NCBI GenBank assembly: GCA_024349765.1
Contig: AP026073.1
Coordinates: 2,046,001-2,110,000 of the forward strand
Source: Streptomyces nigrescens
Lineage (GTDB): Bacteria; Actinomycetota; Actinomycetes; Streptomycetales; Streptomycetaceae
Direction: 5' to 3'
DNA length: 64,000 bases
In this document: positions 17,385-37,119 of the stretch, piece after piece
Numbering within the stretch: the first letter of the stretch is position 1
Layout: every line of letters starts with the position of its first letter
Made by a program: the position numbers and the translations under genes
The notes under the pieces: model-generated
What the model was told of the DNA's origin: nothing
The model's database searches: none
What the model saw: only the letters and a program-made list of their open reading frames with translations

Positions 17385-18368
17385 GTGACCGAAGTGGTCG
17401 GACTTCATCTGGGCACAAACGTCGACATTCCCGTATCCATAGCGTTTCTTCCGGGAGTGTCGGTCATCTCGTTGCTGGCCGATGTCCTCGGTGTCGCGCA
17501 GGGCGTGCCGGTGAGCCGGCGCAGGCTGCTGCGGAAGGCCTGCCCGGAGTATCTGGCGGATGTGATGGGCCCGATCACCGCGGGCGGCTCCCTGCGCATT
17601 CCCGAGTCACTCCTGATGCGGGGCGAACTCAAGGAAAGCAGTATGCGCGACGAGGTCCGGCGCATTGCCGAGATGTCGCCGGATGCCTTCCTCACCGACC
17701 TGGAACGCACATTCGGCGGAGAAGTGCCGCCGGCCTGGCGAAAGGCCACGGATAATCCCGCGGACTTCCTGAATGCGTACGCCGGGTTGGCGCGAAAGGT
17801 ATGGGACGCGGTGGCGCCGGTATGGCAGCAGGGAAAGCCCTTATTGGAACGGGAAATCGAGCGCGCGGGCGTGGCCTCGGTCACCGGCACGATGAGCGCG
17901 TTCCTCGCGAATCTCAGTCCGCGCATCGCCTTCGTCGACGGAAACATTCAGCTGCCCGACCACGCACCGATCGAAAAGGGCGTCACGGTACGCAAATTGA
18001 CGCTCATGCCGCTGGTCTCCGGCACCCGCGCCTGCGCCTACCACGTCGACCACCACGGCCACATGTACCTCGGCTATCCCATCGCCGGCCTCGCCCCGCT
18101 TCTGCAGGGCGAGGCCGCACGGGCGGAGACGGCCGCCGATGCGCTCGCCATGATGCTCGGCGATCTCCGGGCCGACATCCTCCGGACGGGCAACCAGCCC
18201 GTCACCATGGGAAAGCTGGCCGACCTGCTGCACTGCACCGCCGGCACGGTGACGTACCACTGCCGGCAGCTGGAACAGGCGGGTCTCCTCTCCCGCGAGC
18301 GGCGCGGCCGGGAGGTCCGGATACTGCGCACCCTGCGGGGCGACGCACTGGTGGACGCCCTGTCATGA
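17385..18368 (+). CDS. ArsR-like (winged-helix) cluster regulator with a TTA codon
   Basis: A 327-residue regulator. The C-terminal 75 residues form an ArsR/MarR-like winged helix (VTMGKLADLLHCTAGTVTYHCRQLEQAGLLSRERRGREVRIL). The first 230 or so resemble the DUF5937 domain found in front of such domains in actinobacteria. GTG at 17385 follows GGGGGAAAAGAA. Codon 153 (17841-17843) is TTA, which requires the bldA tRNA, a hallmark of pathway-specific regulators. Its stop codon overlaps the purN start (ATGA), so the two are translationally coupled. It probably controls the purine-linked cluster through palindromes at 17054 and possibly 22384. Confidence 0.8.
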   Translation: MTEVVGLHLGTNVDIPVSIAFLPGVSVISLLADVLGVAQGVPVSRRRLLRKACPEYLADVMGPITAGGSLRIPESLLMRGELKESSMRDEVRRIAEMSPDAFLTDLERTFGGEVPPAWRKATDNPADFLNAYAGLARKVWDAVAPVWQQGKPLLEREIERAGVASVTGTMSAFLANLSPRIAFVDGNIQLPDHAPIEKGVTVRKLTLMPLVSGTRACAYHVDHHGHMYLGYPIAGLAPLLQGEAARAETAADALAMMLGDLRADILRTGNQPVTMGKLADLLHCTAGTVTYHCRQLEQAGLLSRERRGREVRILRTLRGDALVDALS

Positions 18369-19057
18369 CGCACCCGACGAACAGGACGGACATGCCCCAC
18401 ATGACGAACGTGAGGGACGCGGCGGACATGATCGAGCGACGAGCACCGAACCTCCGTCTCGTCGTCCTGGTCTCGGGCTCCGGCACGAACCTCCAGGCGC
18501 TCCTCGACGCGATCGCCGCCGATCCCGCAGGATTCGGGGCGGAGATCGTCGCGGTCGGCGCCGACCGGCCGGGCATCACCGGGTTGGAACGTGCCCAGCG
18601 CGCCGGCCTGCCGACCTTCGTGTGCCGGGTGAAGGACCACACCACCCGCGAGGAGTGGGACGAGGCCCTCGCCGAGGCGACCGCGGCGCACCGGCCGGAC
18701 CTGGTGGTCTCGGCCGGCTTCATGAAGATCGTCGGCAAGGCGTTCCTCGCCCGGTTCGGCGGCCGCGTCCTCAACACGCACCCCGCCCTGCTGCCCAGCT
18801 TCCCCGGCGCCCACGGCGTACGCGACGCCCTCGCCTACGGCGTCCGGGTGACCGGCTGCACGGTGCACCTCGTCGACGACGGCGTGGACACCGGGCCGAT
18901 CATCGCGCAGGGCGTGGTGCAGGTACGCGACGAGGACGACGAGACCACGCTGCACGAACGCATCAAGGAGGTCGAGCGCGCACTGCTGGTCGACGTCGTA
19001 CGACGGATCGCCCGGGACGGCTACCGGGTGGTGGGACGAAGAGTGCTGATTCCCTGA
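18365..19057 (+). CDS. purN: Phosphoribosylglycinamide formyltransferase (GAR transformylase)
   Basis: PurN transfers a formyl group from 10-formyl-tetrahydrofolate to GAR, giving FGAR, the third step of purine synthesis. The 230-residue protein has LVVLVSGSGTNLQALLDA, NTHPALLPSFPGAHG (catalytic Asn-x-His) and GCTVHLVDDGVDTGPII (catalytic Asp). The ATG at 18365 overlaps the regulator stop; the first 25 or so residues (MTHPTNRTDMPHMTNV...) are extra, and ATG at 18392 or 18401 could also serve. Housekeeping purN in Streptomyces normally sits beside purH; here it follows a regulator and faces purL, so this is probably a dedicated second copy. Confidence 0.93.
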   Translation: MTHPTNRTDMPHMTNVRDAADMIERRAPNLRLVVLVSGSGTNLQALLDAIAADPAGFGAEIVAVGADRPGITGLERAQRAGLPTFVCRVKDHTTREEWDEALAEATAAHRPDLVVSAGFMKIVGKAFLARFGGRVLNTHPALLPSFPGAHGVRDALAYGVRVTGCTVHLVDDGVDTGPIIAQGVVQVRDEDDETTLHERIKEVERALLVDVVRRIARDGYRVVGRRVLIP

Positions 19058-19084
19058 AGAAGAGGCTGATACGGCGAGTTCGGC

Positions 19085-19131
19085 GGTGGCCGTGGACTCG
19101 TTGCCCGACCGGCAACGAGTCCACGGCCACC
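19085..19131. terminator. Very strong bidirectional terminator between purN and purL
   Basis: A perfect 21-bp stem (19085-19105 with 19111-19131) closes a 5-nt loop (CGACC). It fills most of the gap between the convergent purN and purL stop codons and should terminate both. Confidence 0.9.
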
Positions 19132-19140
19132 ACCATCTCG

Positions 19141-21390
19141 TCAGGGCAGCAACCCCGGGATGGTGCCTTCGTGGGCGGTGCGCAGTTCGCTCAGCGGGAT
19201 GCTGAACTCGCCCTGGATGTCGATCTCTTCGCCGTCGACGACACCGATGCGGGTGGCCGGCAGGCCCCGGACGGTGCACATGTCGGTGAAGCGGACTTCC
19301 TCGCTCCGCGGCACGGCGACGACCGCACGGCCCGCCGACTCGGAGAACAGGAAGGTGAACGCGTCCAGAGCGTCGGGCACGACGAGCCGGGCACCGGTCC
19401 CGCCGCGCAGGCAGGACTCGACGAGGGCCTGGATCAGTCCGCCGTCGGACAGGTCGTGCGCGGCGTCGATCATGCCGTCGCGGGAGGCGGAGATCAGGAT
19501 CTCGGCCAGCAGCCGCTCCCGCTCCAGGTCCACCTGCGGGGGCAGCCCGCCCAGGTGCTCGTGGACGACCTGCGACCAGGCCGAACCACCGAACTCCTCA
19601 CGGGTGTCACCGAGCAGGTAGATCAGCTGCCCTTCCTCGGCGAACCCGATCGGCGTGCGGCGCGTGACGTCGTCGATGACACCCAGCACGGCGACGACCG
19701 GCGTCGGGTGGATCGCCGTCTCGCCGGTCTGGTTGTAGAGGGAGACGTTGCCGCCGGTCACCGGGGTGCCCAGGGTCTGGCAGGCGTCGGCCAGACCACG
19801 GGTGGCCTCGGCGAACTGCCACATGACGGCCGGATCCTCGGGCGAGCCGAAGTTCAGGCAGTCCGAGACGGCCAACGGCTTGGCACCGGAGGCCGCCACA
19901 TTGCGGTAGGCCTCGGCGAGCGCCAGCTGCGCACCCGCGTACGGGTCGAGTTTCGCGTACCGGCCGTTGCCGTCCGTGGCCAGCGCGACGCCCAGGTTGG
20001 TGTCGGCGTCGATCCGCACCATGCCCGCGTCCTCGGGCTGCGCGAGGACGGTGTTGCCCTGGACGAAGCGGTCGTACTGGTCGGTGATCCACGCCTTGGA
20101 CGCCTGGTTGGGAGACGCCACGAGCTGCAGGACCTGGTCCTTCAGCTCTGCCGAAGTGGCGGGCCGGGCGAGCTGGCCCGCGTCGTCGGCCTGCAGGGCG
20201 TCCTGCCAGTCGGGGCGGGCGTAGGGGCGCTGGTAGACCGGGCCCTCGTGGGCGACGGTGCGCGGCGGAACATCGACGATCTGCTCACCGTGCCAGAAGA
20301 TCTCCAGGCGCTCGCCGTCGGTGACCTCACCGATGACGGTGGCGATCACGTCCCACTTCTCGCAGATCTCCATGAACCGCTCGACGTGCTGCGGCTCGAC
20401 GATCGCGCACATCCGCTCCTGCGACTCACTCATGAGGATCTCCTCAGGAGAGAGCGTCGCATCCCGCAGCGGAACGGAGTCCAGCTCGACCCGCATCCCG
20501 CCGGAACCGGCCGACGCCAGCTCACTGGTGGCACACGACAGACCGGCACCACCCAGGTCCTGGATGCCCGCGACCAGCTTCTCCTGGAAGATCTCCAGAG
20601 TGCACTCGATGAGCAGCTTCTCCTGGAAGGGGTCACCGACCTGGACGGCCGGGCGCTTCGTCGGCTTGCTGTCGTCGAAGGTCTCGGAGGCGAGCACGGA
20701 GACGCCGCCGATGCCGTCGCCGCCGGTGCGGGCGCCGTAGAGGATGACCTTGTTGCCGGCGCCGGAGGCCTTGGCCAGGTGGATGTCCTCGTGCTTCATC
20801 ACACCGATGCAGCCGGCGTTGACCAGCGGATTGCCCTGGTAGCAGGCGTCGAAGACGACCTCACCACCGATGTTCGGCAGGCCCAGGCAGTTGCCGTAGC
20901 CGCCGATCCCGGCCACCACGCCTGGCAGCACACGCTTGGTGTCGGGGTGATCGGCCGCACCGAACCGCAGCGGATCGACCACCGCCACCGGACGGGCACC
21001 CATCGCCAGGATGTCGCGGACGATACCGCCCACACCCGTCGCCGCGCCCTGGTAGGGCTCGATGTAGGAGGGGTGGTTGTGCGACTCGACCTTGAAGGTC
21101 ACCGCATACCCCTGGCCCACATCCACCACGCCGGCGTTCTCACCGATACCGACCAGCAGCGCATCGTTCTCGGGCGCCTTCTCCCCGAACTGCTTCAGAT
21201 GCACCTTGCTGGACTTGTACGAGCAGTGCTCGGACCACATCACCGAGTACATCGCCAGCTCCGCCCCGGTGGGGCGGCGGCCCAGGATCTCGCGGATCCG
21301 CGCGTACTCGTCCTCCTTCAGACCCAACTCGGCCCAGGGCTGGGCGGATTCGGGGGTCTCGGTGGCGTGCTTGACAGTGTCGAGAGTCAT
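19141..21390 (-). CDS. purL: Phosphoribosylformylglycinamidine synthase, large subunit
   Basis: Small-type PurL (749 residues) uses ATP and ammonia from PurQ to convert FGAR to FGAM. It shows [20 protein letters not shown] near the N-terminus, the repeated [13 protein letters not shown] and [16 protein letters not shown] segments, and [20 protein letters not shown] in the second half, all typical of AIRS-fold PurL. Its ATG overlaps the purQ stop codon (ATGA), completing a purS-purQ-purL operon. The housekeeping genes have the same order, but here the operon adjoins a biosynthetic cluster with purF, purM and purN, and no purD or purC is present. Confidence 0.96.
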
Positions 21391-22070
21391 CAGGCGCCCA
21401 CCAGCTTCTTCAGGATCGAGGTGAAGAATCCCAGGCCGTCGGTCCGGCCGGTCCCGATCAGCGGCTCCACCGCGTGCTCGGGGTGCGGCATCAGGCCGAC
21501 CACATTGCCCGCCGCATTCGTGATGCCGGCAATGTCACGCAACGAACCGTTGGGGTTACCGTCCAGGTAACGGAAGACCACCCGGCCCTCCGCCTCCAGC
21601 TCATCGAGCGTGCGCTCGTCGGCGGTGTACCGGCCATCGATGTTCTTCAGCGGAACGGAGATTTCCTGCCCGGCCGAGAATTCGGTCGTCCAGGCCGTGT
21701 TCGCGTTCTCCACCCGCAGTCTCTGATCGCGGCAGATGAAGTGCAGATGGTTGTTGCGCAGCATCGCGCCCGGCAGCAGATGCGTCTCGGTCAGCACCTG
21801 GAACCCGTTGCAGATACCCAGGACGGGAAGTCCGGCCTTCGCCTGCTCGATGACGGTCTCCATCACCGGCGAAAAGCGCGAGATCGCTCCGGCGCGCAGG
21901 TAATCGCCGTAGGAAAACCCGCCGGGCAGGACCACGGCGTCGACCTGCTTGAGGTCCTTGTCACGGTGCCACAACGGCACCGCCTCGGCGCCCGCCAGAC
22001 CGACCGCGCGCTGGGTGTCGCGGTCATCGAGCGTGCCGGGGAAAGTGATCACCCCTACCCGTGCGGTCAT
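21390..22070 (-). CDS. purQ: Phosphoribosylformylglycinamidine synthase, glutaminase subunit
   Basis: PurQ is the class I glutamine amidotransferase that feeds ammonia to PurL. The 226-residue protein has the nucleophile Cys in [13 protein letters not shown] and the His-Glu pair in [30 protein letters not shown] is the oxyanion strand. Both ends overlap neighbours by ATGA (purS before, purL after), so the three subunits are translationally coupled and made in step. Confidence 0.96.
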
Positions 22071-22321
22071 GACGGCTCGACCTTCACGGTGAAGTCTTCG
22101 ATGACGGTGTTGGCGAGAAAGGTGTCGGCCAGCTCCTGGATACGGGTGAGGGCGGCGTCATCGACGGGCCCGTCCACCTCCAGTTCGAAACGCTTGCCCT
22201 GGCGGACTTCGGCGATCGCGATGCCGTCGAAACCGAGGCGGGGCAGTGCGCGCTGTACCGCCTGCCCCTGCGGGTCGAGGATCTCCGGCTTGAGCATGAC
22301 GTCGACCACGACGCGTGCCAC
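22067..22321 (-). CDS. purS: Phosphoribosylformylglycinamidine synthase subunit PurS
   Basis: PurS (84 residues) is the small dimeric bridge of the PurLQS complex. [21 protein letters not shown] and the C-terminal [13 protein letters not shown] are almost diagnostic. The GTG at 22321 is preferred to the GTG at 22327, because GGAAGGAG lies 5-6 bases before the former and abuts the latter. It is the first gene of the purSQL operon and is divergent from the monooxygenase gene at 22679 across a palindrome-rich intergenic region. Confidence 0.93.
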
Positions 22322-22383
22322 TGGCACTCCTTCCGGTAAGGGTGTTGACGCAAAAGGGAGTTGCTTGGTTCCACCGGAAGGAA

Positions 22384-22403
22384 AAAGTGACCTGTTTCAC
22401 TTT
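22384..22403. promoter_or_regulatory. Palindrome AAAGTGA-N6-TCACTTT, probable operator
   Basis: Perfect 7-bp arms with a 6-nt spacer (CCTGTT) lie 63 bases upstream of purS on its template side. The size and symmetry are those of a dimeric repressor site. Which regulator binds it is unknown. Confidence 0.45.
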
Positions 22404-22415
22404 GGAGTCGGCGGA

Positions 22416-22451
22416 TTCGCGCCGGAGTGACGCTGTGCACTCCGGCGCGAA
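22416..22451. repeat. Perfect 14-bp stem-loop in the divergent region
   Basis: TTCGCGCCGGAGTG (22416-22429) pairs with CACTCCGGCGCGAA (22438-22451) around an 8-nt loop. It may insulate the two promoters or act in the purS leader. No U-run follows on either strand. Confidence 0.6.
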
Positions 22452-22678
22452 GTCGGTTCGGTCCGCTCGGTCCGGGCCCCCGTCCGGTCGGCTCCATTAG
22501 GGGGAAGTCGGGGCGGTGAAGTCAAGGTTCGGCAGGAATCCAGCCGGTCGTTTGAAAGTCCTTGAAAGTGGCTGGAGTCGACCCCGCGACTTGATGAAGT
22601 CTTGGTCGTACAGCAGCACCCTCACAGGCTTCGGAGGGGGCTGCGTACGCCGCACCATCGATGGGGGAATTCAGTTTC

Positions 22679-24058
22679 ATGCCAGAACCACAAGTGGATC
22701 CACGGCCGGTCGCCGTCATCGGAGCGGGCCCTTCCGGGCTGGCCTCTCTCAAGAACCTCAGTGATCTCAACATTCCGTGTGTGGCGTACGAGTCCCACTC
22801 CGGCGTGGGCGGTATCTGGGACATCCGTAATCCGCGGAGTTCCGTCTACCAGAACACCCACACCATCACCTCCCGCGAGGTGACGGGTTACGCGGATCTT
22901 CCCATGGACCGCGGGCTGCCCGCCTATCCCCGGCACGATCAGGTGCACGGGTATCTGCGGCAGTACGCGGAGCGGTTCAACCTGCTGCCGCTGATCCGGT
23001 TCGGCTCCGACGTCACGCAGGTCGAGCGGCTCACGGACGGCTGGCGGGTCACCACCGCGGACGGGCACTCGGCCGAGCACCGCGCGCTGATCATTGCGAA
23101 CGGCCACAACTGGCACCCCCATATGCCGGCGTTCTCGGGGAAGTTCGACGGGGAGATCCTGCACAGCCGGGACTACACCAGCGCGGCCGCTCTCGCCGGC
23201 AAGCGGGTCCTGGTCGTCGGTGCCGGGAACTCCGGCTGTGACATCGCGGTGGAGGCCGCCGGCGTCACCGATCACGTCGCGATCAGCATGCGCCGCGGCT
23301 ACTACTTCTTCCCGAAATTCATCTTCGGAAAGCCCGCGGACCAGGTCTCCGAATCGAGCCAGAATCTGCGACTGCCGGCCCCGATGGCGCGTGCGGCGTA
23401 CCGGACCATGCTGAAGCTGAGCATCGGCACCCCCGATCAGTTCGGACTGCCGAAGCCCGATCACGAGCCGCTGGAATCCCCGCCGATCGTGAACTCCCTG
23501 CTGCCGTACTACTGCGCGCACGGCCGGGTGAAGGTGCGCAAGGCCCCGGTGCGTTTCGACGGGAAGTTCGTCGAGTTCTCGGACGGTACGTCGGAGGAAT
23601 TCGACACCATCATCATGGCGACCGGTTTCCGGATCCACATTCCGTTCGTCGGTGAGGAGCACCTGGACTGGAACAAGGGCCGGCCGGACTTCTATCTGCT
23701 CGCCTTCTCGCCGCGCTACGACGATCTCTTCATCGCCGGAATGACCGACGGAACGGGCGGCCATTTCCCCACTGTCGAGCTGCAGTCGCGGGTGATCGCG
23801 AGCTATCTGGCGGCCCGGGAACGGGACCCGGAGGCGGCCCGCCGGTTCGACGAGCGCAAGCGGAGGCGGGACGTGGACATCACCGGCGGGATCAAGTTCC
23901 TCGACTCCCCGCGCAATCTCACCCAGTTCGAACTCCTCACCTACCTGCGGGTGCTGCGCGACCACCTGTCGCTGCTGGGCGGCCGCGACACCACCTACGC
24001 CCAACGGCCCTCCCTGCTGGAGCAGGCGGCCGCGCTCTTCTCGGGAGGCCGCAAGTGA
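22679..24058 (+). CDS. Flavin-containing monooxygenase (N-oxidising type)
   Basis: A 459-residue class B flavin monooxygenase, first gene of the large cluster operon. VAVIGAGPSGLASLKNL is the FAD-binding motif and VLVVGAGNSGCDIAVEAA the NADPH-binding motif. Between them FSGKFDGEILHSRDY matches the FMO fingerprint FxGxxxHxxxY. MATGFRIHIPF is the C-terminal ATG motif. Such enzymes oxygenate amines or sulfides, and an amine such as an aminoimidazole is a plausible substrate here (inference). ATG at 22679 has GGGGGA 10 bases before it; an in-frame ATG at 22661 lacks a ribosome binding site. Its stop overlaps the next start (GTGA). Confidence 0.9.
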   Translation: MPEPQVDPRPVAVIGAGPSGLASLKNLSDLNIPCVAYESHSGVGGIWDIRNPRSSVYQNTHTITSREVTGYADLPMDRGLPAYPRHDQVHGYLRQYAERFNLLPLIRFGSDVTQVERLTDGWRVTTADGHSAEHRALIIANGHNWHPHMPAFSGKFDGEILHSRDYTSAAALAGKRVLVVGAGNSGCDIAVEAAGVTDHVAISMRRGYYFFPKFIFGKPADQVSESSQNLRLPAPMARAAYRTMLKLSIGTPDQFGLPKPDHEPLESPPIVNSLLPYYCAHGRVKVRKAPVRFDGKFVEFSDGTSEEFDTIIMATGFRIHIPFVGEEHLDWNKGRPDFYLLAFSPRYDDLFIAGMTDGTGGHFPTVELQSRVIASYLAARERDPEAARRFDERKRRRDVDITGGIKFLDSPRNLTQFELLTYLRVLRDHLSLLGGRDTTYAQRPSLLEQAAALFSGGRK

Positions 24059-24933
24059 ACGCCGTCGGTGCGGCGGTGCTGAGCGAGGTGCAGAAGGAGG
24101 TCCTCGACGAGGTGCTCGTCGGGGTGCCGTACAACAGCGCCTCCCAGTTCCACGAGTACTTCGGCACCCGGGCCGCCCCGCCGCGGTTCGGACAGTCCTG
24201 CGCCTGGCAGTCGTTCACGGCCGGCCGGCTGGTCGCCGAACGGTCCGGGATCACCGCCGAATACCCCATCGACGGACGGCACGTGGCGGCCGTCTACCGG
24301 CGGGCGGAGGGCCTCGACATCCTCGACCCGTACCTGCTGCACGCCGAGCCGCTGCGGCTCGACCGCGCCGCCGCGACCGACGGCGTCGTGCAGCTGACCG
24401 TCGACGCCTACCCGTTCCGGGTCAAGAAGGACGGCAGCCCGGCGCCCAGCCGGGTGCGGGCCACCTGGACGCTCGACGACGACGCGGTCCGCCTGGACTA
24501 CCTGCGGTACAGCCCGCGGCGCGGGCACAACATCGCCTCGCGGTCCTTCGTGCTGCGCCCCGAGTCGCAGCTGGAGACCGTGCCGCCGGCCGCGGACTGG
24601 GTGCGCCCGCTGCTGGTCCACCCCGAGCAGCACAGCGTGTCCGTACGGGTGCTGCACCCGGTCAGCCGGCAGATGGCGGAGCTGGTCCTGCCGCTCGCCG
24701 GGCGGCCCGCCGGGGTCGCCGAGGACAGCCTGCTGATGCTCACCAAGGACAACCAGGGCGCCGTCGCGACGCACGGCGACGCCCGCTTCCGGCGCGACCT
24801 GGAGGTCGTGGCCGACGCTGTCGGCGCACCGCAGGACGACGTGGTCGCCTTCCTCCTCGAAGCGGCCGCGATCCACCGCGCCGCGGCACCGGCCGGGCTG
24901 GTCCTGGCCCCGTACTCCCTGGAGGACGAGTGA
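24055..24933 (+). CDS. Arylamine N-acetyltransferase-like protein
   Basis: I read this 292-residue protein as a divergent NAT-fold acyltransferase. FGQSCAWQSF carries Cys49, RHVAAVYRRAEGLDILDP carries His76 and Asp91, and the His-to-Asp spacing of 15 equals that of known NATs (Cys-His-Asp triad). NATs move an acyl group from CoA, or in rifamycin-type amide synthases from a carrier protein, onto an aromatic amine. In this operon a carrier-bound acyl chain and an aminoimidazole would be natural partners, but that is inference. GTG at 24055 overlaps the monooxygenase stop. Overall similarity outside the triad is low, so an unrelated cysteine enzyme is possible. Confidence 0.5.
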   Translation: MNAVGAAVLSEVQKEVLDEVLVGVPYNSASQFHEYFGTRAAPPRFGQSCAWQSFTAGRLVAERSGITAEYPIDGRHVAAVYRRAEGLDILDPYLLHAEPLRLDRAAATDGVVQLTVDAYPFRVKKDGSPAPSRVRATWTLDDDAVRLDYLRYSPRRGHNIASRSFVLRPESQLETVPPAADWVRPLLVHPEQHSVSVRVLHPVSRQMAELVLPLAGRPAGVAEDSLLMLTKDNQGAVATHGDARFRRDLEVVADAVGAPQDDVVAFLLEAAAIHRAAAPAGLVLAPYSLEDE

Positions 24934-25460
24934 CCGCCCCAGACGCGCGGGACGACCGGCCCGCCCGCTCCTACTTCCTGGCCGGCACCATGCAGGGCGC
25001 GCGCACCGGCGCCGACCTCACCGATCAGTCCTACCGGCAGCGGCTGACCGAGGCGCTGCGCGCGCGCCGCCCCGACGCGGTCATCCACGACCCGGGTGTG
25101 GTGATGGCCGAATGGCTCGCCTCGCACCCCGCGGACGTCCGCGCCGCACACGCCGCGCTGGCCGACCGGAAGGTCCTGCACCACGACGAACTCGCCAAGG
25201 AACTCCGCGAGTTGACCGACCTGTTCCACCGGCTCACCCGGCTGGCGGCGGACAGCGACGTGTGCGTGGCCTGGCTGCCCGGGCACGAGCCGAGCATGGG
25301 CACCGCCGCGGAGATGCTCTCCGCGCACCGTGCCGGCCGCACCGTCGTCGCCATCACGGACATGCGCCAGAACCTCGCGGTGCTGTCCTGCTCGACCGTG
25401 ATCCTGCCGGACCTGGACGCCTTCACCGACTGGCTCGACTCGGGCGGTGACGCCTTATGA
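24930..25460 (+). CDS. Nucleoside 2-deoxyribosyltransferase-like protein
   Basis: This 176-residue protein has the outline of the NDT/DNPH1/BlsM superfamily, which breaks or transfers N-glycosidic bonds of nucleosides and nucleotides. YFLAGTMQGAR resembles the N-terminal loop, SDVCVAWL the central strand, and PSMGTAAEML (121-130) the conserved segment holding the nucleophilic Glu (about E128). BlsM and MilB, which release bases from CMP derivatives in nucleoside antibiotic clusters, belong here. Beside six AIR-forming genes it could release aminoimidazole from AIR (inference). Its last sense codon is TTA (25455-25457), overlapping the purF start, so both may depend on bldA. Confidence 0.5.
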   Translation: MTAPDARDDRPARSYFLAGTMQGARTGADLTDQSYRQRLTEALRARRPDAVIHDPGVVMAEWLASHPADVRAAHAALADRKVLHHDELAKELRELTDLFHRLTRLAADSDVCVAWLPGHEPSMGTAAEMLSAHRAGRTVVAITDMRQNLAVLSCSTVILPDLDAFTDWLDSGGDAL

Positions 25461-26932: not shown

Positions 26933-26943
26933 GGAGCACAGCA

Positions 26944-29427: not shown

Positions 29428-30600
29428 ATGAACCGCGCCGGACTCCACGAGCTGCGCGTCCTGGCCGCCAGCCGCCCCGCCCTCCCGCTGCTGCTGCACG
29501 CCGGCCGGCTGGCCCGGCCCCTGACCTACGTCCCGAAGCTGGGCTGGCTGACCGCCGACGCGGCGACCGCCCGGTCCGTGCTCGTCGACCAGAAGCACTT
29601 CACCGTCCTCGACCGCGGCGGCGTCGGCCGGCTGTGGGCCCAGCTCCTGGGCGGCTGGGTCGAGGACCTCTTCGACGGCGAGGGCCACCGGGCGCTGCGC
29701 GCCGGCACCCGCGAGCTGTTCGGCGAGACCGCGGCCCGCGAGCTGGTCGACCGCACCATCGGGGCCCGGCTCGTCGAGGCCCGCGTCCAGCTCGCCGCGG
29801 GCCGGCCCCTGGACGTCGCGGCCCTCGGCCGGGCCGTCGTCGGCCGGATCGTGACCGAGCTGCTCCGGGTCCCGGTCACCGGCACCGACGACGCCGCCTA
29901 CGAACGGGTCTTCGCCACCGCCCGCGCACTGGCCGCGCTGTCCGTGGAGGCGGCCGGTGGCGGCGAGTTGACCGAGGCGACGGTGGCCCGCGGCCGCGGC
30001 ATCGTGGCGCGGCTCACCGGGCACGTCGAGGGACTGTGGGCCACCGAGCCCGCCGACCACCTCATCGGCCGCTGCCGCGAGGTCGGCCTGAACGCCCGGC
30101 AGACCGCCGGCATGGCCGCGCTGGTGGGCGTGGCCGCCACCGAGACCGCCGCCAGCGCCATCACCCGGACCGTCGCGCTGCTGCACGACACCGGCGAGCA
30201 GCACGCCCTGCTGGCGTCCCCGCAGCGGGTCCCGGAGGCGGTCCGCGAGGGGCTGCGGGTGACCGCGCCGGCGCCGGTCATCGGCCGGACCGTGCGCAGC
30301 CAGGTGCGGCTGGCCGGGCGCACCCTGCGGGCCGGCGACCGGATCACGCTGCTCAACTACACCGCCAACAGCCTCACCGGCGGCTTCCGGCTCGGCCGGC
30401 CCGCCGAACCCGCCAACCGCCAGCTGTGGTTCGGCGCCGGCCGCCACCACTGCCTCGGCTCCGCCATCGCCCAGGCCGAGATCGGCCGGACCCTGGAGAC
30501 CCTGACCGCGGTGGGACGGCCCTGGCGGATCACCGAGCGCCGCTACAGCCGCCGCGTGGTCATCCCCTCGTACGACCGGCTGACCGTGACCCTCGTCTGA
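29428..30600 (+). CDS. Cytochrome P450
   Basis: A 390-residue bacterial P450. The heme loop reads WFGAGRHHCLGSAIA, the ExxR pair lies in VREGLRVTAPAP, and the I-helix segment is LVGVAATETAAS with the conserved Thr region. It is one of two P450s in the operon; both presumably oxidise the acyl chain or the assembled product. No ferredoxin gene is present, so electrons must come from elsewhere. ATG at 29428 follows GAGAGGGA. It is preceded by 98 bases without a gene, the only sizeable gap in the operon, where an internal promoter could lie. Confidence 0.93.
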   Translation: MNRAGLHELRVLAASRPALPLLLHAGRLARPLTYVPKLGWLTADAATARSVLVDQKHFTVLDRGGVGRLWAQLLGGWVEDLFDGEGHRALRAGTRELFGETAARELVDRTIGARLVEARVQLAAGRPLDVAALGRAVVGRIVTELLRVPVTGTDDAAYERVFATARALAALSVEAAGGGELTEATVARGRGIVARLTGHVEGLWATEPADHLIGRCREVGLNARQTAGMAALVGVAATETAASAITRTVALLHDTGEQHALLASPQRVPEAVREGLRVTAPAPVIGRTVRSQVRLAGRTLRAGDRITLLNYTANSLTGGFRLGRPAEPANRQLWFGAGRHHCLGSAIAQAEIGRTLETLTAVGRPWRITERRYSRRVVIPSYDRLTVTLV

Positions 30601-30615: not shown

Positions 30616-31626
30616 ATGCCCCAGATCCACGCGCGGCTGGCCGGTGTGGCCGTCCACCTGCCCGAGACCCTGCGCTCCACGACGGACACCGAGCACCGGG
30701 TGGCCGCCGCCGGCACCGGATTCCGCCCGCCGCCCGGCCTCGTGTACCGGCTGACCGGCGTCGAGCGGCTGCACGTCATGCCCGACGACTGGCAGGCGTC
30801 CGACCTGGCGGCCGCCGCGGCCCGCAAACTCCTCGCCGACACCGGCACCGACGCCGGCACCATCGACCTGCTGCTCTTCGCCGCCGCCAGCCAGGACATG
30901 ATCGAGCCGGCCACCTCGCACATGGTCGCCGACCGCCTCGGCCTGCGCTGCCCCGTCTTCGACGTCAAGAACGCCTGCAACAGCGTGCTCAACGCGCTGG
31001 AGACCGCCCACGCGCTGATCGCCCAGGGCTCCTACCGCCGGATCCTGATCGCCTGCGGCGAATCGCCCTCCCGCGCCGTCCGCTGGGCGGTGCCGGACCT
31101 GCGCAGCTACCTCGCGTCGATCCCCGGCTACACCCTCTCCGACGCCGGCGCCGCGCTGCTCGTCGAGGCGTCCGCGGAGCCCGGCATCCTCGGCTGCGGC
31201 TTCACCGCCGACTCCGCCTCCTGGAACGTCGGCACGCTCGCCTCGGGCGGCTCGGCCCACCCCCGCGGCGACGAGCACACCTACTTCCGGCTCGACGGCG
31301 TGGGACTGCGCCGCGCCTTCGAACGGCTCGGCCCGCAGATCCTCGACGACACCCTGGACCGGCTCGGCGTCCGCTGGCAGGACATGGCGGCCATCTGCGT
31401 CCACCAGGTCTCCAAGCCCTATCTGGACCAGCTCGCCGAACGGTTCGGGCTGCCCCCCGACAAGATCCCGCTCACCGTCACCGAACACGGCAACGCGGCG
31501 TCGGCCAGCCTGCCGCTGCAGCTCGTCCGCGCCCGGGAGAGCGGCCGGGCCGGCGTCGGCGACCTGGTGGCCCTGATCGGGCTCGCCGGCGGCATCAGCA
31601 TGGGAGTGAGCGTGATCCGGCTGTGA
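30616..31626 (+). CDS. OleA-like ketoacyl synthase III (head-to-head condensing enzyme)
   Basis: A 336-residue thiolase-fold KASIII. Cys121 (FDVKNACNSVLNAL), His263 (CVHQVSKPYL) and Asn293 (EHGNAASASLPL) form the triad. SQDMIEPATSHMVADRLG (Glu97) matches the OleA segment with its special Glu (RDYLEPST in Xanthomonas OleA). OleA joins two acyl thioesters without decarboxylation to give a 2-alkyl-3-keto acid. OleC-like and OleD-like genes lie three and four genes downstream, which supports that reaction rather than fatty-acid initiation. No second KASIII is present, so it is probably a homodimer. A conventional FabH-like role is the alternative. Confidence 0.82.
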   Translation: MPQIHARLAGVAVHLPETLRSTTDTEHRVAAAGTGFRPPPGLVYRLTGVERLHVMPDDWQASDLAAAAARKLLADTGTDAGTIDLLLFAAASQDMIEPATSHMVADRLGLRCPVFDVKNACNSVLNALETAHALIAQGSYRRILIACGESPSRAVRWAVPDLRSYLASIPGYTLSDAGAALLVEASAEPGILGCGFTADSASWNVGTLASGGSAHPRGDEHTYFRLDGVGLRRAFERLGPQILDDTLDRLGVRWQDMAAICVHQVSKPYLDQLAERFGLPPDKIPLTVTEHGNAASASLPLQLVRARESGRAGVGDLVALIGLAGGISMGVSVIRL

Positions 31627-32366
31627 GGCTCTGGGTGGTGGTACCGGCCTACAACGAGGCCCCCGGCATCACCGCGACGCTGCGGGCGCTCGCGGCCCAG
31701 ACCGACCGGGACTTCTCCCTCGTGATCGTCGACAACGACTCCACGGACGGCACCCCGGACGTCGTACGGTCCTTCGGCTTCCCCGGCGACCTGCACCTGG
31801 TGCACGAGACCCGCAAGGGCACCGGCGCGGCCGCCGACACCGGGATGCGCCACGCCATCGCGCACGGCGCCACGCACCTGGCCCGCACCGACGCCGACTG
31901 CCTGCCCGCGCCCGACTGGACCGCCCGGGTCCGGGCCGGCTTCGACGCCGGACTGGAACTGATCGCCGGCCGGCTGCGGCCCCGCACCGACGAGGCGCCG
32001 CTGCCCCCGCTGCGGCGCGCCGCCCTGGTCTCCGCGACCGAAGTGGCCGCGCTCTTCGGCCGGTTCCGGCCCGGCAACCGCGGCCCGGAGTACCTCGGCC
32101 CGTACGTGATGGCGCCCGGCTGCAACATGGCGATCACCGCGGAGCTGTACGAACGCGCCGGCGGGTTCCCGCGCACCGCCATCGAGGAGGTCCACGAGGA
32201 CCGCGCCCTGGTCAACGCGGTCCGCCGGCTGACCACCGCGTACGGCACGCGGCGCGACGTGAAGGTGGCCGGCTCGGCCCGCCGGGTGCGGGCCTGGGGA
32301 CTGCGCCGCACCCTCGGCTGGTACGCGGACCACCGCTACCGGCCCGAGGTGGTGGACATCCGGTGA
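31623..32366 (+). CDS. GT2-family glycosyltransferase
   Basis: A 247-residue soluble GT-A glycosyltransferase. VVVPAYNEAPGITATL and VDNDSTDGTPDVV form the nucleotide-sugar site, and RTDADCLPAPDW holds the DxD metal motif. The later HEDRALVNAVRRL matches the catalytic ED of inverting GT2 enzymes. No membrane segments are visible, so it may glycosylate a small molecule rather than a polymer. GTG at 31623 overlaps the KASIII stop codon. No sugar-nucleotide biosynthesis genes are present, so a common donor is expected. Confidence 0.85.
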   Translation: MRLWVVVPAYNEAPGITATLRALAAQTDRDFSLVIVDNDSTDGTPDVVRSFGFPGDLHLVHETRKGTGAAADTGMRHAIAHGATHLARTDADCLPAPDWTARVRAGFDAGLELIAGRLRPRTDEAPLPPLRRAALVSATEVAALFGRFRPGNRGPEYLGPYVMAPGCNMAITAELYERAGGFPRTAIEEVHEDRALVNAVRRLTTAYGTRRDVKVAGSARRVRAWGLRRTLGWYADHRYRPEVVDIR

Positions 32367-33553
32367 CGACGACCACCACCACGGCGGCGCCCGCCACCTG
32401 GGAGCACTGGGAACACCGGGTGCAGACCGCCGCCCACCCCGTCGCCTACCGGCTGCTGCGCGCGATCGCCGCCCGCGGCCCGGTGGTCCGGGTGCCGCGG
32501 GTCGGCGTCGTGGTCAGCGACGCCGCGCTGGCCCGCGAAGTCCTCTGCGACACCGGCCACTTCACCAAGACCGGGCCCGGCTCACCGTCCGACCTGTGGA
32601 CTCCGGTGCTCGGCCCGTCGGTGCTGCTCAACATGGAGGGCCCCGACCACGCGGCGCTCCGCCGCCGGCTGTCCGGGCTCTTCACCCCCGGCTACGTCAC
32701 GGCCCTGTGCGCCCGGGTGCTGGCGCAGCCGCTCGACGCGCTGACCCGCCGGCTGCGCGCCGGCGAACAGGTCGATCTGGTCCGGGTCGCGCAGATCTGC
32801 GCGGGCGCCGCGATCTGCGCGATCGTCGGGATGCCCGCGGAGCCCGGCCGGTTCGGCGGGGCGCACGCCGAGGCGTCCGAGGTGACGAAGTCGGTACGGC
32901 TGTGGCGGTCCGGCATGACGGGCCGTCAGGTGACGCGGGCGCGCGAGATGCTGGGCCGGCTGACCGCCTCCGCGGTGACGGCCTACCGGCAGGGCGGCGA
33001 CGAGACCCTGCCGGGGCGGCTGCGGGAACTGGGCCTGACCGAGCAGGAGGCCCGCGGGGCCGTCGGCGCCTTCCTGCTCACCGGCACCGAGACCCTGGTC
33101 TCGTTCATCCCGCGGCTGATCGCGCTCTGCCACGACACCGGCCGGCTCGACCGGCTCGCGGACCCCGCCGCCGACCCCGACCCGGTGATCGAGGAGGCAC
33201 TGCGGATCACCGTGCCGTCCCCCGTGATGCTGCGCAGCGTCGCCCGCGCCGCACGGATCGGCGGCGTCCCGGTCGCGCCCGGCGACCGGGTCGTGGTGGC
33301 CACGCTGCTGTGCGCCCAGGCCTACGGGCCGTTCGACCCCGAGCGGCCGCACCCGCCGGAACTGCGCCGGCTGTGGTTCGGCGCGGGCCCGCACTTCTGC
33401 CTCGGCATGCCGCTGGCCATGGCGCAGATCCGCGCGGTGCTGGCCGCCGCGCTCGCCGCCGGGCCGGTCGCCGTCACCGGCCGCCGCCCGGCCCGGCACG
33501 TCCTGATCCCGGGCTACGCCCGGCTGAACCTCGAACTCAGGAGCGCCAGTTGA
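32363..33553 (+). CDS. Cytochrome P450
   Basis: A 396-residue P450. The heme loop is WFGAGPHFCLGMPLAMAQ, EEALRITVPSP contains ExxR, and FLLTGTETLVSF is the I-helix with the TET segment. GPSVLLNMEGPDHAALRRRLSGLFTP is the conserved helix C region. GTG at 32363 overlaps the glycosyltransferase stop codon. It is clearly different in sequence from the P450 at 29428, so the pair probably carries out two separate oxidations. Confidence 0.93.
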   Translation: MTTTTTTAAPATWEHWEHRVQTAAHPVAYRLLRAIAARGPVVRVPRVGVVVSDAALAREVLCDTGHFTKTGPGSPSDLWTPVLGPSVLLNMEGPDHAALRRRLSGLFTPGYVTALCARVLAQPLDALTRRLRAGEQVDLVRVAQICAGAAICAIVGMPAEPGRFGGAHAEASEVTKSVRLWRSGMTGRQVTRAREMLGRLTASAVTAYRQGGDETLPGRLRELGLTEQEARGAVGAFLLTGTETLVSFIPRLIALCHDTGRLDRLADPAADPDPVIEEALRITVPSPVMLRSVARAARIGGVPVAPGDRVVVATLLCAQAYGPFDPERPHPPELRRLWFGAGPHFCLGMPLAMAQIRAVLAAALAAGPVAVTGRRPARHVLIPGYARLNLELRSAS

Positions 33554-35118
33554 CCGGCACCCGGCCCGCGGCGGACGACCCGATCGATCTGCTCACCGCC
33601 TTCTTCGACACCGCCGAGCGGCGCGCCGACGCGCCGGCCCTCACCGGCCCGGACGGCCGCACCCTCGGCTACCGCGAACTGGCCCGCGCCGTCCTGACCA
33701 CGGCGAGCGGGCTGCGCGCGGCCGGGATGGCGGCGGGGGAGCGGATGCTGTTCTCCGTACGGCCGGGACCGGACGGCGTGGTGCTCGCCCTGGGCGTGAT
33801 CGCCGCAGGCGGCACCGTGGTCTTCGCCGACCCCGGCGCCGGGCCCGAACTGTTCACCGCCCGCCGCGAACTCGCCCGGCCGCGCTGGGCCGCCGCCGAG
33901 TCCCTGCTGTATGCGGTGGCCCGCTACGGCCGCCCGCTGGCCCGGCGCCGCGGACTGCTGCTGCCGCACTACCACCGGCTCGGCCTGCGGCACGTCCACA
34001 CCGGCCGACGGCTGCCCGGCGTCCCCGCCGGGGCACTGTCCGCCCGCCGGCTCGCCGCCGGCCCCGCCCCGGCCGACCGCCCCGGACCGGCGCCCGGACA
34101 GGAGGCGCTGGTCGTCTTCACCTCCGGCACCACCCAGGCGCCCCGGGCCGTGGTCCACACCCGCGGCTCGCTCGGCGCCGGCCTGGTCGGCTGCGGCTCC
34201 GCCCTGTGCATGGGCGACGGCGACGTGCTGCACACCGACCAGTTGATGATGGGCATCCCGGCCCTGGTCGCCGGGGCGCACTGGACCATGCCGCCGTACG
34301 GCTTCGCGCCCGCCGCCGACCCCGGGCGGTTCACCCGCGGACTGGCCGGCGCCACCCACGCGTTCTGCGTACCGGCCGACCTGCCCGCGGTGCTCGACGC
34401 CGTCGAACGCGGCGAGGCGGCACTGCCCGCCTCGCTGCGCCACCTCGTCCTCGGCGGCGCACCGGTCCTGCCCGGCCTGCTGCGCCGGGCCACCCAGGTC
34501 CTGCCGCGGGTCCGCTTCCTCGCCGTGTACGGCATGACCGAGATCGTGCCGGTCGCGGTCGCCACCGGCCGCGCGAAGCTCGCCCACCGCGGCCCCGGCG
34601 ACCTGCTCGGCACCCCCCTGCCGGGGGTCCGCGTGCGCACCGCCCCGGACGGCGAACTGCTGGTCTCCGGGCCCAACCTGTGCCGCGGCTACCTCGGCGA
34701 GCCGCCGATGACCGAACACGCCACCGGTGACCTCGCCCGGCTGGAGAACGGCGAACTGGTCCTGCTCGGCCGGAAGAAGGACATGCTCATCCGCGGCCGC
34801 ACCAACATCTACCCCGGGCTCTACGAACCGGCCGTCGCGGCCCTGCCCGGCGTCGCCGACGCGGTCATCGTCGGCGTCCCGGACACCTACGGCGACGAGC
34901 GCGTCGTCCTGGCCGTCGTGCCCGAACGGCCCGCTGCCGACCGGGAGTCGCTCGCCGACGCCGTGCGCTCCCGGCTGCCCGCCCTCATCGACGCGGCCGC
35001 GCTGCCGGACGAGGTGGTGGTCCTGGACCGCGTCCCGGTCACCGGCCGCACCCGCAAGCCGGACCGCGCCGCGCTGCGCGACCTGCTGGGCGACCGGACG
35101 GCGGGGGCGGCGCGATGA
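33550..35118 (+). CDS. OleC-like adenylate-forming enzyme (possible beta-lactone synthetase)
   Basis: A 522-residue ANL-superfamily protein. VVFTSGTTQAPRAVVHTRGS (189-208) is a P-loop with Arg in place of the usual Lys, and VYGMTEIVPVAVATGR (327-341) closely matches YGATECLPVAVVEGR of OleC. VVFADPGAG (91-98) resembles the OleC VLVDPGID. OleC turns a beta-hydroxy acid into a beta-lactone with ATP. TTG at 33550 overlaps the P450 stop and has AGGAG upstream. The next gene resembles OleD, OleC's usual partner. An ordinary acyl-CoA or acyl-ACP ligase is the alternative; a structure-guided alignment would decide. Confidence 0.7.
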   Translation: MTGTRPAADDPIDLLTAFFDTAERRADAPALTGPDGRTLGYRELARAVLTTASGLRAAGMAAGERMLFSVRPGPDGVVLALGVIAAGGTVVFADPGAGPELFTARRELARPRWAAAESLLYAVARYGRPLARRRGLLLPHYHRLGLRHVHTGRRLPGVPAGALSARRLAAGPAPADRPGPAPGQEALVVFTSGTTQAPRAVVHTRGSLGAGLVGCGSALCMGDGDVLHTDQLMMGIPALVAGAHWTMPPYGFAPAADPGRFTRGLAGATHAFCVPADLPAVLDAVERGEAALPASLRHLVLGGAPVLPGLLRRATQVLPRVRFLAVYGMTEIVPVAVATGRAKLAHRGPGDLLGTPLPGVRVRTAPDGELLVSGPNLCRGYLGEPPMTEHATGDLARLENGELVLLGRKKDMLIRGRTNIYPGLYEPAVAALPGVADAVIVGVPDTYGDERVVLAVVPERPAADRESLADAVRSRLPALIDAAALPDEVVVLDRVPVTGRTRKPDRAALRDLLGDRTAGAAR

Positions 35119-36002
35119 GGATCGCGGTGACCGGCGCCCGCGGCTTCGTGGGCGGCGCGGTCTGCCGGGCGGCGACCGCCGCGGGCTGGACCGTGCACGC
35201 CCTCACCCGCGCCGACTGGGACCTGTGCGCCGGGGCCTGGGCGGACGCCCCCGAGGTCGACGCGGTGGTGCACGCGGCCGCCGCCGTCCGCGACTGGGGC
35301 GCGCCCGGACCCGTCTGGCACGCCAACCTCACCGGCACCCGGAACGTGGCCGCGTCCTTCCCCGGCGCCCGGCTGGTGCACATCTCGACGGCCAGCGTGT
35401 ACGACCCGTTCCGGCCGACCGTCCTCGGCCACGAGACCGAGGCCCCGGTCCGCCGCTACCTCACCCCGTACGCCGCCTCCAAGGCCGCCGCCGAACTGGC
35501 CCTGCGCGGCCGCCCGGACACCGTCGTGCTGCGCCCGCACGCCGTCTACGGGCCGGGCGACCGGACGCTGCTGCCCCGGGTGCTCGGCGCGGTCCGCGGC
35601 GGCGCCCTGTGGCTGCCGGGCGACGGCACCGCCCTGCAGTCGCTCACCCACATCGACCAGCTGACCGCGGCCGCGCTGCTGGCCTGCGACCGGGCCACCC
35701 GGCCCGGCACCTACAACATCGCCGACGCGGCCCCGGTCCCCATCGGCGAGGCGCTGCGGGCCCTGCTCGCCGCCCGCGGCCTGACGGTACGGCTGCGCAC
35801 CGTACCGGCCGCCGTGGCGTCCGCGGCCGCGGCGGCCGCCGAGACGGCCTGGCGGCTGGCGGAACGGCCCCGGCCGCCGCGGCTCACCCGCTACGCGCTC
35901 AGCCACCTCGCCATGGAACGCACCCTGGCGCTCGGCGCCGCCCGCCGCGGCCTCGGCTTCCGTCCCGGACCGACCTCCTTCCACGGCGCGGCGTCATGGT
36001 GA
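35115..36002 (+). CDS. OleD-like NAD(P)-dependent reductase/epimerase
   Basis: A 295-residue extended SDR. VTGARGFVGGAV is the glycine motif, HISTASVYD holds the catalytic Ser/Thr, and Tyr119 and Lys123 lie in PYAASKAAAE. VLRPHAVYGPGD and the C-terminal AETAWRLAERPRPPRLTRYALSHLA with AARRGLGFRP follow OleD (2-alkyl-3-oxoalkanoate reductase) closely. OleD reduces the OleA product before OleC acts. ATG at 35115 overlaps the OleC-like stop. No OleB (beta-lactone decarboxylase) gene is present, so the lactone, if made, would be kept. Confidence 0.8.
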   Translation: MRIAVTGARGFVGGAVCRAATAAGWTVHALTRADWDLCAGAWADAPEVDAVVHAAAAVRDWGAPGPVWHANLTGTRNVAASFPGARLVHISTASVYDPFRPTVLGHETEAPVRRYLTPYAASKAAAELALRGRPDTVVLRPHAVYGPGDRTLLPRVLGAVRGGALWLPGDGTALQSLTHIDQLTAAALLACDRATRPGTYNIADAAPVPIGEALRALLAARGLTVRLRTVPAAVASAAAAAAETAWRLAERPRPPRLTRYALSHLAMERTLALGAARRGLGFRPGPTSFHGAASW

Positions 36003-36048
36003 CGCCGCACCCCACCACCTGCCCCAACTCCCCGAAAGGCGGCCGCCC

Positions 36049-37119
36049 GTGAGCCCCCGCACCGGAGCCAGCTATGCGTCCGCGGGCGTCGACATCGACG
36101 CCGGCGACCGCGCCGTCGAGCTGATGAAGGAGTGGGTGAGGAAGACCGCCCGCCCCGAGGTCGTCGGCGGCCTCGGCGGGTTCGCCGGCCTCTTCGACGC
36201 CTCGGCGCTGAAGGGCTACGCCCGCCCGCTGCTGGCCTCGGCCACCGACGGCGTCGGCACCAAGGTCGACATCGCCCGCGCCCTGGGCGTCCACCACACC
36301 ATCGGCCACGACCTCGTCGCGATGGTCATGGACGACATCGTCGTGTGCGGCGCCGAACCGCTCTTCATGACCGACTACCTCTGCGTCGGCAAGGTCCACC
36401 CCGAGCGGGTCGCCGCGATCGTCAAGGGCATCGCCGAGGGCTGCGTCCTGGCCGGCTGCGCGCTGATCGGCGGCGAGACCGCCGAACACCCGGGCCTGCT
36501 CGGCGCGGACGAGTTCGACCTCGCCGGCGCCGGCACGGGCGTCGTCGAGGCGGACCGGCTGCTGGGCGCGGATCGTATCCGCACCGGCGACGCGGTGATC
36601 GCGATGGCCTCGTCGGGCCTGCACGCCAACGGGTACTCCCTGGTGCGCCACGTCCTCCTCGACCGCGCCGGACTGCGCCTGGACCAGCACATCGCCGAAC
36701 TGGGCCGCACCCTGGGCGAGGAACTGCTGGAACCCACCAGGATCTACGCCGCCGCCTGCCTGGCCCTGACCCGCGCGACCGAGGTGCACGCCTTCGCGCA
36801 CATCACCGGCGGCGGACTGGCGGGCAACCTCGCCCGGGTGGTCCCAGACGGGCTGCACGCCACCGTCGACCGCGCGACCTGGACCCCGGGCCCGGTCTTC
36901 GGCCTGGTCGGCACGGCCGGCCCGGTCGAGCGCCGGGAACTGGAGCGGACCCTGAACATGGGCGTCGGCATGATCGCCGTCGTCCCACCGGAGTCCGTGA
37001 CCACGGCCCTCGCCACGCTCGCCGACCGCGGGGTGGACGCCTGGGTCGGCGGCGAGATCGTCGAGCGCGGCGACCGCACCACCGGCGCGGAACTCGTCGG
37101 CGACTACGCCGGCGGATAG
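36049..37119 (+). CDS. purM: Phosphoribosylformylglycinamidine cyclo-ligase (AIR synthetase)
   Basis: PurM closes FGAM to 5-aminoimidazole ribonucleotide with ATP. The 356-residue protein shows SYASAGVDIDAGDRAVELMK, LLASATDGVGTKVDIA, VVCGAEPLFMTDYLCVGK and HITGGGLAGNLARVVP, all PurM signatures. GTG at 36049 follows AAAGGCGG. It is the last gene of the operon and makes AIR, the last purine intermediate that this cluster can supply. The stop codon lies inside the 3' end of the oppositely oriented muramidase gene (16-base tail overlap). Confidence 0.96.
   Translation: MSPRTGASYASAGVDIDAGDRAVELMKEWVRKTARPEVVGGLGGFAGLFDASALKGYARPLLASATDGVGTKVDIARALGVHHTIGHDLVAMVMDDIVVCGAEPLFMTDYLCVGKVHPERVAAIVKGIAEGCVLAGCALIGGETAEHPGLLGADEFDLAGAGTGVVEADRLLGADRIRTGDAVIAMASSGLHANGYSLVRHVLLDRAGLRLDQHIAELGRTLGEELLEPTRIYAAACLALTRATEVHAFAHITGGGLAGNLARVVPDGLHATVDRATWTPGPVFGLVGTAGPVERRELERTLNMGVGMIAVVPPESVTTALATLADRGVDAWVGGEIVERGDRTTGAELVGDYAGG

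Follow-up and report, generated by a model that had tools for sequence, protein, structure and literature searches.

Why would a Streptomyces genome hold a second set of early purine genes beside what appear to be the genes of a secondary-metabolite pathway? The question is raised by a locus of Streptomyces nigrescens at positions 17358-37119 of the stretch analyzed here (the window: 64,000 nucleotides, C1:2046001-2110000 of a two-contig genome of 9.33 Mb). On the plus strand of the locus lie a regulator and purN and, further on, a run of genes from a flavin-dependent monooxygenase (FMO) to purM; between them, purL, purQ and purS occupy the minus strand (Table 1). Genes were modeled from the GC content of third codon positions (GC3) and an open reading frame listing, and families were assigned through Pfam and NCBIfam searches. 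A sequence-only reading of this DNA had placed purN, purS, purQ, purL, purF and purM together with a pathway-type regulator and tailoring genes, and all six were recovered in place by these searches. An acyl-chain part had also been suggested, and a fatty acyl-AMP ligase (FAAL), an acyl carrier protein (ACP) and a KASIII-type condensing enzyme are indeed present in the cluster. It is highly probable that the locus is a conserved cluster with a dedicated supply from phosphoribosyl pyrophosphate (PRPP) to 5-aminoimidazole ribonucleotide (AIR). We further propose, with a probability of roughly 0.6, that it encodes a natural-product pathway that makes its own AIR, releases and N-acylates the AIR base, and decorates the acyl chain.

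The first point to settle is whether the pur genes are simply the housekeeping set. The housekeeping purSQL, purF and purM genes were located at about 7.969-7.978 Mb of C1 (locus L011) by genome searches for AIRS_C and PurF, and another purN lies at C1:6.857 Mb, where TIGR00639 is matched over its cut-off (2.1e-68). The genome holds six Formyl_trans_N matches, and the next two formyltransferases after the purN copies are nearer PurU and Fmt. All six cluster pur genes have separate housekeeping copies in the same genome, which rules out the housekeeping interpretation that the sequence-only reading had named as one possible refutation. Its claim that the set spans PRPP to AIR except PurD also holds: purD has a single genome match over cut-off, at 7.960 Mb, with four more below it. 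The gene for the first step past AIR, purE, has a single match, 1.7 Mb from the window. With purD and purE as the other pur genes examined, the duplication covers the route from PRPP to AIR, PurD excepted. When the cluster genes are compared with their own housekeeping copies, the purSQL block shows 97.1% DNA identity over 3195 bases and purM 89.2% over 1015 bases. The corresponding protein identities are 98.7% for PurL, 96% for PurQ, 84% for PurS (74 residues), 85% for PurM and 41.5% for PurF.

The cluster is also found in other streptomycetes. U292 is a cluster protein family for which neither Pfam nor NCBIfam holds a model, and a profile scan with its alignment over contigs of 84,980 species gave 18 loci, 10 of which carry the pur-type cluster. 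These relatives are S. endophytica, Streptomyces sp. NRRL S-337, PKU-EA00015, S. albospinus, S. yangpuensis, S. lavendofoliae, S. noursei B-3066, S. lichenis, S. rimosus NRRL WC-3904 and Streptomyces sp. SW4. The plus-strand order in the window is FMO-U292-NDT-purF-FAAL-ACP-DUF6506-P450a-KASIII-GT2-P450b-OleC-OleD-purM; from FMO to OleC it is identical in 10/10 relatives, in all of which the purS start adjoins FMO. Because this order, purF included, is kept in every relative, a chance neighborhood is ruled out, and the flanking genes are not the unrelated neighbors that the earlier reading had named as the other possible refutation. The regulator and purN are seen in four of the 10 relatives, the contigs of the other six ending before the regulator on that side; regulator identity is 96% in S. 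endophytica and 56-60% in the three others. Six draft contigs stop within purS (L063, L064, L066, L067), purQ (L062) or purL (L069), presumably as a result of assembler behavior at a near-identical repeat. At the other end, purM follows OleD in six of the seven relatives whose stretch extends past OleD. Where contigs continue, the block common to the clusters reaches to the regulator on one side and to OleD-purM on the other, and different genes lie beyond in the more distant species. In S. lichenis (L068/L167), the purQ of the cluster breaks off after 81 residues and is joined to an inverted purL scrap, through either a real rearrangement or an assembly error.

This conserved order also bears on the idea that two adjacent pathways with unrelated products are present, an Ole-type beta-lactone/glycosyltransferase/P450 cluster having landed within a pur/U292/FAAL cluster. 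The KASIII-GT2-P450-OleC-OleD module does stand alone elsewhere: of 394 family genomes, 75, the window's own among them, contain a match to the family-2-type glycosyltransferase (GT2) at E<=1e-30, and the seven of these 75 loci that were opened all have matches to KASIII, GT2, P450b, OleC and OleD. A gap of 98 bases ahead of P450a likewise suits a junction at that point. We nonetheless regard two separate pathways as quite unlikely, with purF preceding the module in all 10 relatives and purM lying past OleD in the six of seven mentioned above.

The proposal of a dedicated supply is consistent with the history of PurF. Seven cluster PurFs share 82.7-99.0% identity with one another and 42.2-44.5% with eleven housekeeping PurFs, and they form a separate clade in the tree (support 1.000). 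Two purF loci are present in 8/8 cluster-bearing genomes searched; G396, G397 and G399 were left out of this search, and G396 and G399 lacked purM matches altogether, a sign of incomplete assemblies. The catalytic N-terminal Cys1, the four Fe-S cysteines and the PRPP loop are kept in all seven cluster PurFs compared. At positions 283, 305 and 306 (Bacillus subtilis numbering), these proteins carry T, R and P (7/7), as opposed to S, K and N in the housekeeping proteins (11/11); this site table was made without the split cluster copy of genome G403. According to an excerpt of PMC4223553, the substitutions S283A, K305Q, R307Q and S347A, as well as K316Q in another numbering, relieve feedback inhibition of PurF, and K316 presumably equals K305 with the propeptide counted. 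Judging from these residues, the cluster PurF is probably freed from purine feedback.

PurF and purL have evolved in opposite ways, PurF as a diverged clade and purL as a near-identical twin of each genome's own housekeeping copy. The comparison of purL used four of six two-copy genomes, G398 and G402 being omitted for their fragmentary copies. Within these four genomes, the two copies are 98.4, 97.0, 97.6 and 92.1% identical, the last figure being rough because G403 is full of frame changes, whereas cluster copies from different genomes share 85.4-93.7%. In the tree, the cluster copy pairs with its own housekeeping copy in 4/4 cases (support 0.987-1.000). For G400, the copy on contig C81 was assumed to be the cluster purL, and both copies pair whichever assignment is made. 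In S. nigrescens, the high likeness of purSQL is limited to the coding block (window 19139-22330 as compared with L011:7068-10250, C1 about 7.969-7.972 Mb). The pairing is best explained by repeated gene conversion, the alternative being independent re-duplication. Of six cluster purM copies compared, that of S. noursei groups with the housekeeping purM of its genome (98.7%), unlike the other five.

These histories matter for a further possibility, namely that the spare pur genes confer self-resistance by target duplication, the product being an inhibitor of early purine synthesis such as a glutamine analogue hitting PurF and PurL. PurF and PurL/Q are established glutamine amidotransferase systems, and the strong divergence of the cluster PurF would fit an altered target. 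The near-identity of purL to its housekeeping copy in 4/4 genomes is the reverse of target alteration, the catalytic and Fe-S residues of the cluster PurF are intact, and PurN and PurM, which are not glutamine enzymes, are duplicated as well. Self-resistance would also leave the putative base-releasing enzyme and the acyl cassette unexplained, and we consider it very unlikely.

If instead the genes supply a natural-product pathway, its first step is well supported: the cluster PurF, PurN, PurSQL and PurM together with the single housekeeping PurD would take PRPP to AIR. In a second step, an enzyme of the NDT/MilB fold would cleave the N-glycosidic bond of AIR or N-acylated AIR, giving an aminoimidazole base and ribose 5-phosphate. 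The FAAL would then charge the ACP with an acyl chain, which U292, through Cys-His-Asp, would move onto the exocyclic amine. In a fourth step, KASIII, OleC and OleD would build the chain or lengthen it into a beta-hydroxy acid or beta-lactone, to be decorated by GT2, the P450s and FMO. For the fate of AIR, that is, base release, N-acylation and work on the chain, this is a coherent proposal based on sequence and structure models.

The NDT-like protein gives no Pfam match at 0.001, and PF05014 is matched weakly by the eight aligned members (8/8, best 4.1e-4). Its AlphaFold2 (AF2) model, with a predicted local distance difference test score (pLDDT) of 83, is matched by Foldseek to 2'-deoxyribosyltransferases, human DNPH1 and MilB (4jem, 4jel) with probability 1.00. 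At E<=0.001 there are 19 chains, comprising 18 that are NDT, DNPH1 or 7m5h (an NDT by name) and one flavin reductase; MilB itself appears at an E-value of 1.6e-3. An excerpt of PMC4081090 names residues Ser97, Gly99, Glu103 and Asp78 of MilB and the cytosine motif F-L-(G/A)-(G/A)-P-F. In the NDT-like family, S122, G124 and E128 are invariant (8/8) and are counterparts of Ser97, Gly99 and Glu103 by spacing as opposed to superposition; T20, Q22 and G23 are invariant as well. The cytosine motif is absent from the family, which has FLAGTMQG in the window and F(L/I/V)AGT(M/I)QG overall, with no Pro-Phe, and for this reason CMP is an unlikely substrate. The protein resembles MilB and BlsM of mildiomycin and blasticidin S in its fold and in the spacing of Ser-x-Gly and the nucleophile Glu, and differs from them in the missing motif, a Thr at the spacing of Asp78 and a proposed substrate that would be AIR.

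In U292, Cys49, His76 and Asp91 are invariant in 14/14 sequences, and in the AF2 model (pLDDT 88) Cys49 stands at a helix start. The spacing and order VP(F/Y)...C...H...D offer a hint of arylamine N-acetyltransferases (NATs), for which we take this order to be significant. Among PDB sequences, U292 had either no match or matches at chance level. U292 was not assigned as an arylamine N-acyltransferase, Cys-His-Asp being present without profile or fold similarity.

The chain-building part has OleA-, OleC- and OleD-like genes together and no OleB-like gene within the cluster, the rest of the genome not having been searched for OleB. The nearest solved chains to KASIII are FabH-type by name (4ryb, 2.9e-38), followed by the 3fk5/3row/4kti series, which we take to be OleA. 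The names OleC-like and OleD-like rest on family and gene order; for the OleD-like protein, NCBIfam gives NF042422 OleD as the best match (2.1e-37, far below cut-off). For P450a, the best NCBIfam match is TIGR04515, a P450-derived glycosyltransferase activator (3.5e-11, below cut-off), and the protein may serve GT2 as a helper instead of oxidizing. The same five gene types form the OleA-GT-OleC-P450-OleD module of Actinoplanes atraurantiacus, for which an excerpt of PMC7064751 predicts a glycosylated beta-lactone. A beta-lactone is only predicted in both cases. Unlike this module and the oleACD clusters of lipstatin and nocardiolactone, the window cluster combines these gene types with pur genes, FAAL/ACP, U292/NDT and FMO.

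Several observations weigh against the proposed pathway. The changes at the PurF feedback sites are mild in kind (K to R, S to T), position 347 is S in cluster and housekeeping proteins alike, and position 307, G in the cluster PurFs, is already S or A in the housekeeping ones. In the NDT-like protein, the residue at the Asp78 spacing is T103, although an insertion could shift this match. With U292 as query, nothing credible came out of the fold search, and the best 50 of 656 matches contained no NAT. When U292 was aligned with 12 NATs of relatives, hhalign returned non-significant E-values of 0.19 and 0.11 (probability 0.3-0.5%); the reverse alignment does place Cys, His and Asp together, at E 0.11 and probability 0.5%. 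For KASIII, FabH scores above the chains that we take to be OleA. S. rimosus NRRL WC-3904 (L168) has no purM after OleD and a single purM in the genome search, so that its housekeeping PurM would have to serve the cluster, and in S. lichenis 71% of purM is matched. Finally, and as the main ground for caution, U292-NDT-FAAL-ACP also exists without pur genes nearby or doubled, which implies that the substrate of the cassette need not be AIR or that AIR comes from the general pool.

Such pur-free cassettes make up three of the 18 loci, in S. piniterrae, S. filamentosus and Streptomyces sp. NBC_00083 (38-74% identity). No pur match was found in these three stretches, where NDT and FAAL are direct neighbors, and each genome yields a single match at E<=1e-60 for each of purM, purL and purF. 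The difference arose either by insertion of purF between NDT and FAAL or by its loss from that position. The other five loci are less similar (30-34%); in each of them U292 and NDT are paired, with FAAL further off. Among 394 sampled family genomes, 11 have U292 matches at E<=0.001, three of which are short or marginal. By eye, the cassette adjoins a nonribosomal peptide synthetase in S. piniterrae (L070) and a membrane protein resembling a desaturase in S. filamentosus (L071), and in NBC_00083 (L072) it lies near halogenase-like and SbnA/SbnB-like genes. A cassette in genomes without pur duplicates may usually act on a common nucleotide, and it is conceivable that the extra pur genes boost general purine flux, the precursor of the product being a nucleotide other than AIR, either a purine nucleotide made further along the pathway (IMP, AMP, GMP, GTP) or one of another kind. 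Against such a boost, purE, the next step past AIR, is single and far from the window, and the missing cytosine motif of the NDT-like family speaks against CMP; we judge it unlikely.

The two operons of the AIR-based pathway that we favor would be governed by the regulator and by a divergent region between purS and FMO, which was compared in 11 clusters. In the window, AGTG-N8-CACT lies at 22426-22441 inside a 36-bp perfect inverted repeat (22416-22451), AAGTCAAG at 22519-22526, and TTGAAAGT repeats with CTGGA at 22551-22576. The words AAGTCAAG, TCCTT(G/A)AAAGT and CTGGA occur in 11/11 clusters and AGTG-N8-CACT in 10/11, the 36-bp repeat being limited to the window, S. endophytica and NRRL S-337. 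These shared words and the repeat are likely an operator and promoters.

Several known systems provide a context for this proposal. AIR leaves the purine pathway as the precursor of the thiamine pyrimidine (ThiC) and of the B12 lower ligand (BzaF), in both cases from housekeeping AIR; unlike at these branch points, the cluster has second copies of its own for the purF, purN, purSQL and purM steps. Amide formation of the amicetin type, in which a dedicated amide synthetase joins an activated acid to a nucleobase amine, offers a parallel for N-acylation. The EvoMining idea holds that duplicates of central-metabolism enzymes are recruited into natural-product clusters, and the diverged second PurF in a specialized cluster is of this kind. 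Unlike such recruitment, a run of steps is duplicated here and purL stays like its own genome's housekeeping copy. Among titles and abstract openings of open-licence papers, no such cluster and no AIR-derived natural product was found, and AIR as a natural-product building block is apparently unreported so far. The single natural-product paper among them that names AIR, the conglobatin work (excerpt of PMC4504003), invokes PurM only as a mechanistic comparison.

If the proposal is true, AIR is a natural-product building block, and a class of acyl-aminoimidazoles is predicted from 11 Streptomyces genomes. Carriers of the cluster include strains named S. noursei and S. rimosus, so that a search for the product could draw on existing culture collections. 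The cluster PurF would be a natural PurF that may be feedback-free, and U292 a possible new amide-forming family. In purL, a secondary-metabolism duplicate has kept its likeness to the housekeeping gene, apparently through gene conversion, whereas the neighboring purF has diverged. More tentatively, and somewhat short of an even chance, the cluster could define a new class of lipids or glycolipids with a 5-aminoimidazole head, combining a feedback-free route to AIR, an N-glycosidase that releases the base, a new family of acyl-ACP amide synthases that captures the unstable amine immediately, and gene conversion of purL with purF left free.

The layout of the cluster is compact. With the chosen start codons, overlaps of 4 bases occur at FMO/U292, U292/NDT, NDT/purF, purF/FAAL and FAAL/ACP, such that purF is overlapped on both sides, and further ones at KASIII/GT2, GT2/P450b, P450b/OleC and OleC/OleD. 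Besides the gap ahead of P450a, one of 46 bases precedes purM. The start codon of the regulator is uncertain, 17385 being another possibility.

Table 1. Features of the cluster (window positions), with strand and supporting matches.
Feature	Position	Strand	Evidence
Pathway regulator, 336 aa, C-terminal ArsR/MarR-like helix-turn-helix	17358..18368	+	MarR 5.7e-7, HTH_20 4.4e-6
purN, glycinamide ribonucleotide (GAR) formyltransferase, second copy	18365..19057	+	Pfam formyltransferase domain; TIGR00639 2e-69, over cut-off
Perfect inverted repeat, terminator-like, between converging purN and purL	19085..19131		read from sequence
purL, formylglycinamidine ribonucleotide (FGAM) synthase large subunit, second copy	19141..21390	-	Pfam AIRS/AIRS_C
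purQ, FGAM synthase glutaminase subunit, second copy	21390..22070	-	GATase_5 6.2e-33
purS, FGAM synthase small subunit, second copy	22067..22327	-	PurS 2.8e-26
Divergent region, putatively regulatory	22328..22660		comparison of 11 clusters
Flavin-dependent monooxygenase, FMO class	22661..24058	+	FMO-like 2.3e-56; motif FxGxxxHxxxY; nearest solved chain 8z16 3.6e-56
U292, amide-synthase-like	24055..24933	+	family without Pfam or NCBIfam model
NDT-like, putative nucleotide N-glycosidase of NDT/DNPH1/MilB fold	24930..25460	+	weak PF05014, fold matches
purF, PRPP amidotransferase, cluster-specific clade	25457..26932	+	TIGR01134 8.7e-113, over cut-off
FAAL, fatty acyl-AMP ligase	26929..28743	+	AMP-binding 3.1e-60; PRK05850 (fatty-acid--AMP ligase) 1.7e-111, below the model's cut-off
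Acyl carrier protein, Ser in DSM motif	28740..29015	+	PP-binding 1.1e-7
DUF6506 protein	29018..29329	+	PF20116 2.9e-32; Pfam assigns no function
P450a, cytochrome P450 or P450-derived glycosyltransferase activator	29428..30600	+	PF00067 6.4e-5, just below cut-off
KASIII/OleA-like condensing enzyme	30616..31626	+	ACP_syn_III_C 1.6e-21; Cys121 at active-site position
GT2, family-2-type glycosyltransferase	31623..32366	+	weak NCBIfam matches, best TIGR04283 1.8e-17, below cut-off
P450b, cytochrome P450	32363..33553	+	PF00067 3.7e-13
OleC-like acyl-AMP ligase	33550..35118	+	AMP-binding 1.3e-37; position in KASIII-GT2-P450-ligase-reductase module
OleD-like NAD-dependent reductase	35115..36002	+	Epimerase 4.3e-29, 3Beta_HSD 1.7e-13
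purM, AIR synthetase, second copy, last gene of conserved unit	36049..37119	+	AIRS_C 8.2e-32

Outside the cluster, window positions 37104-41636 hold a gene for a NamZ-type exo-muramidase followed by short-chain dehydrogenase/reductase (SDR), AMP ligase and TetR-like genes. This flank past purM is common to the window, S. endophytica and NRRL S-337, and was not seen in the other five relatives whose stretch passes OleD. Within the cluster, the DUF6506 protein is 90-100% identical in 10/10 relatives, above most of the neighboring genes.

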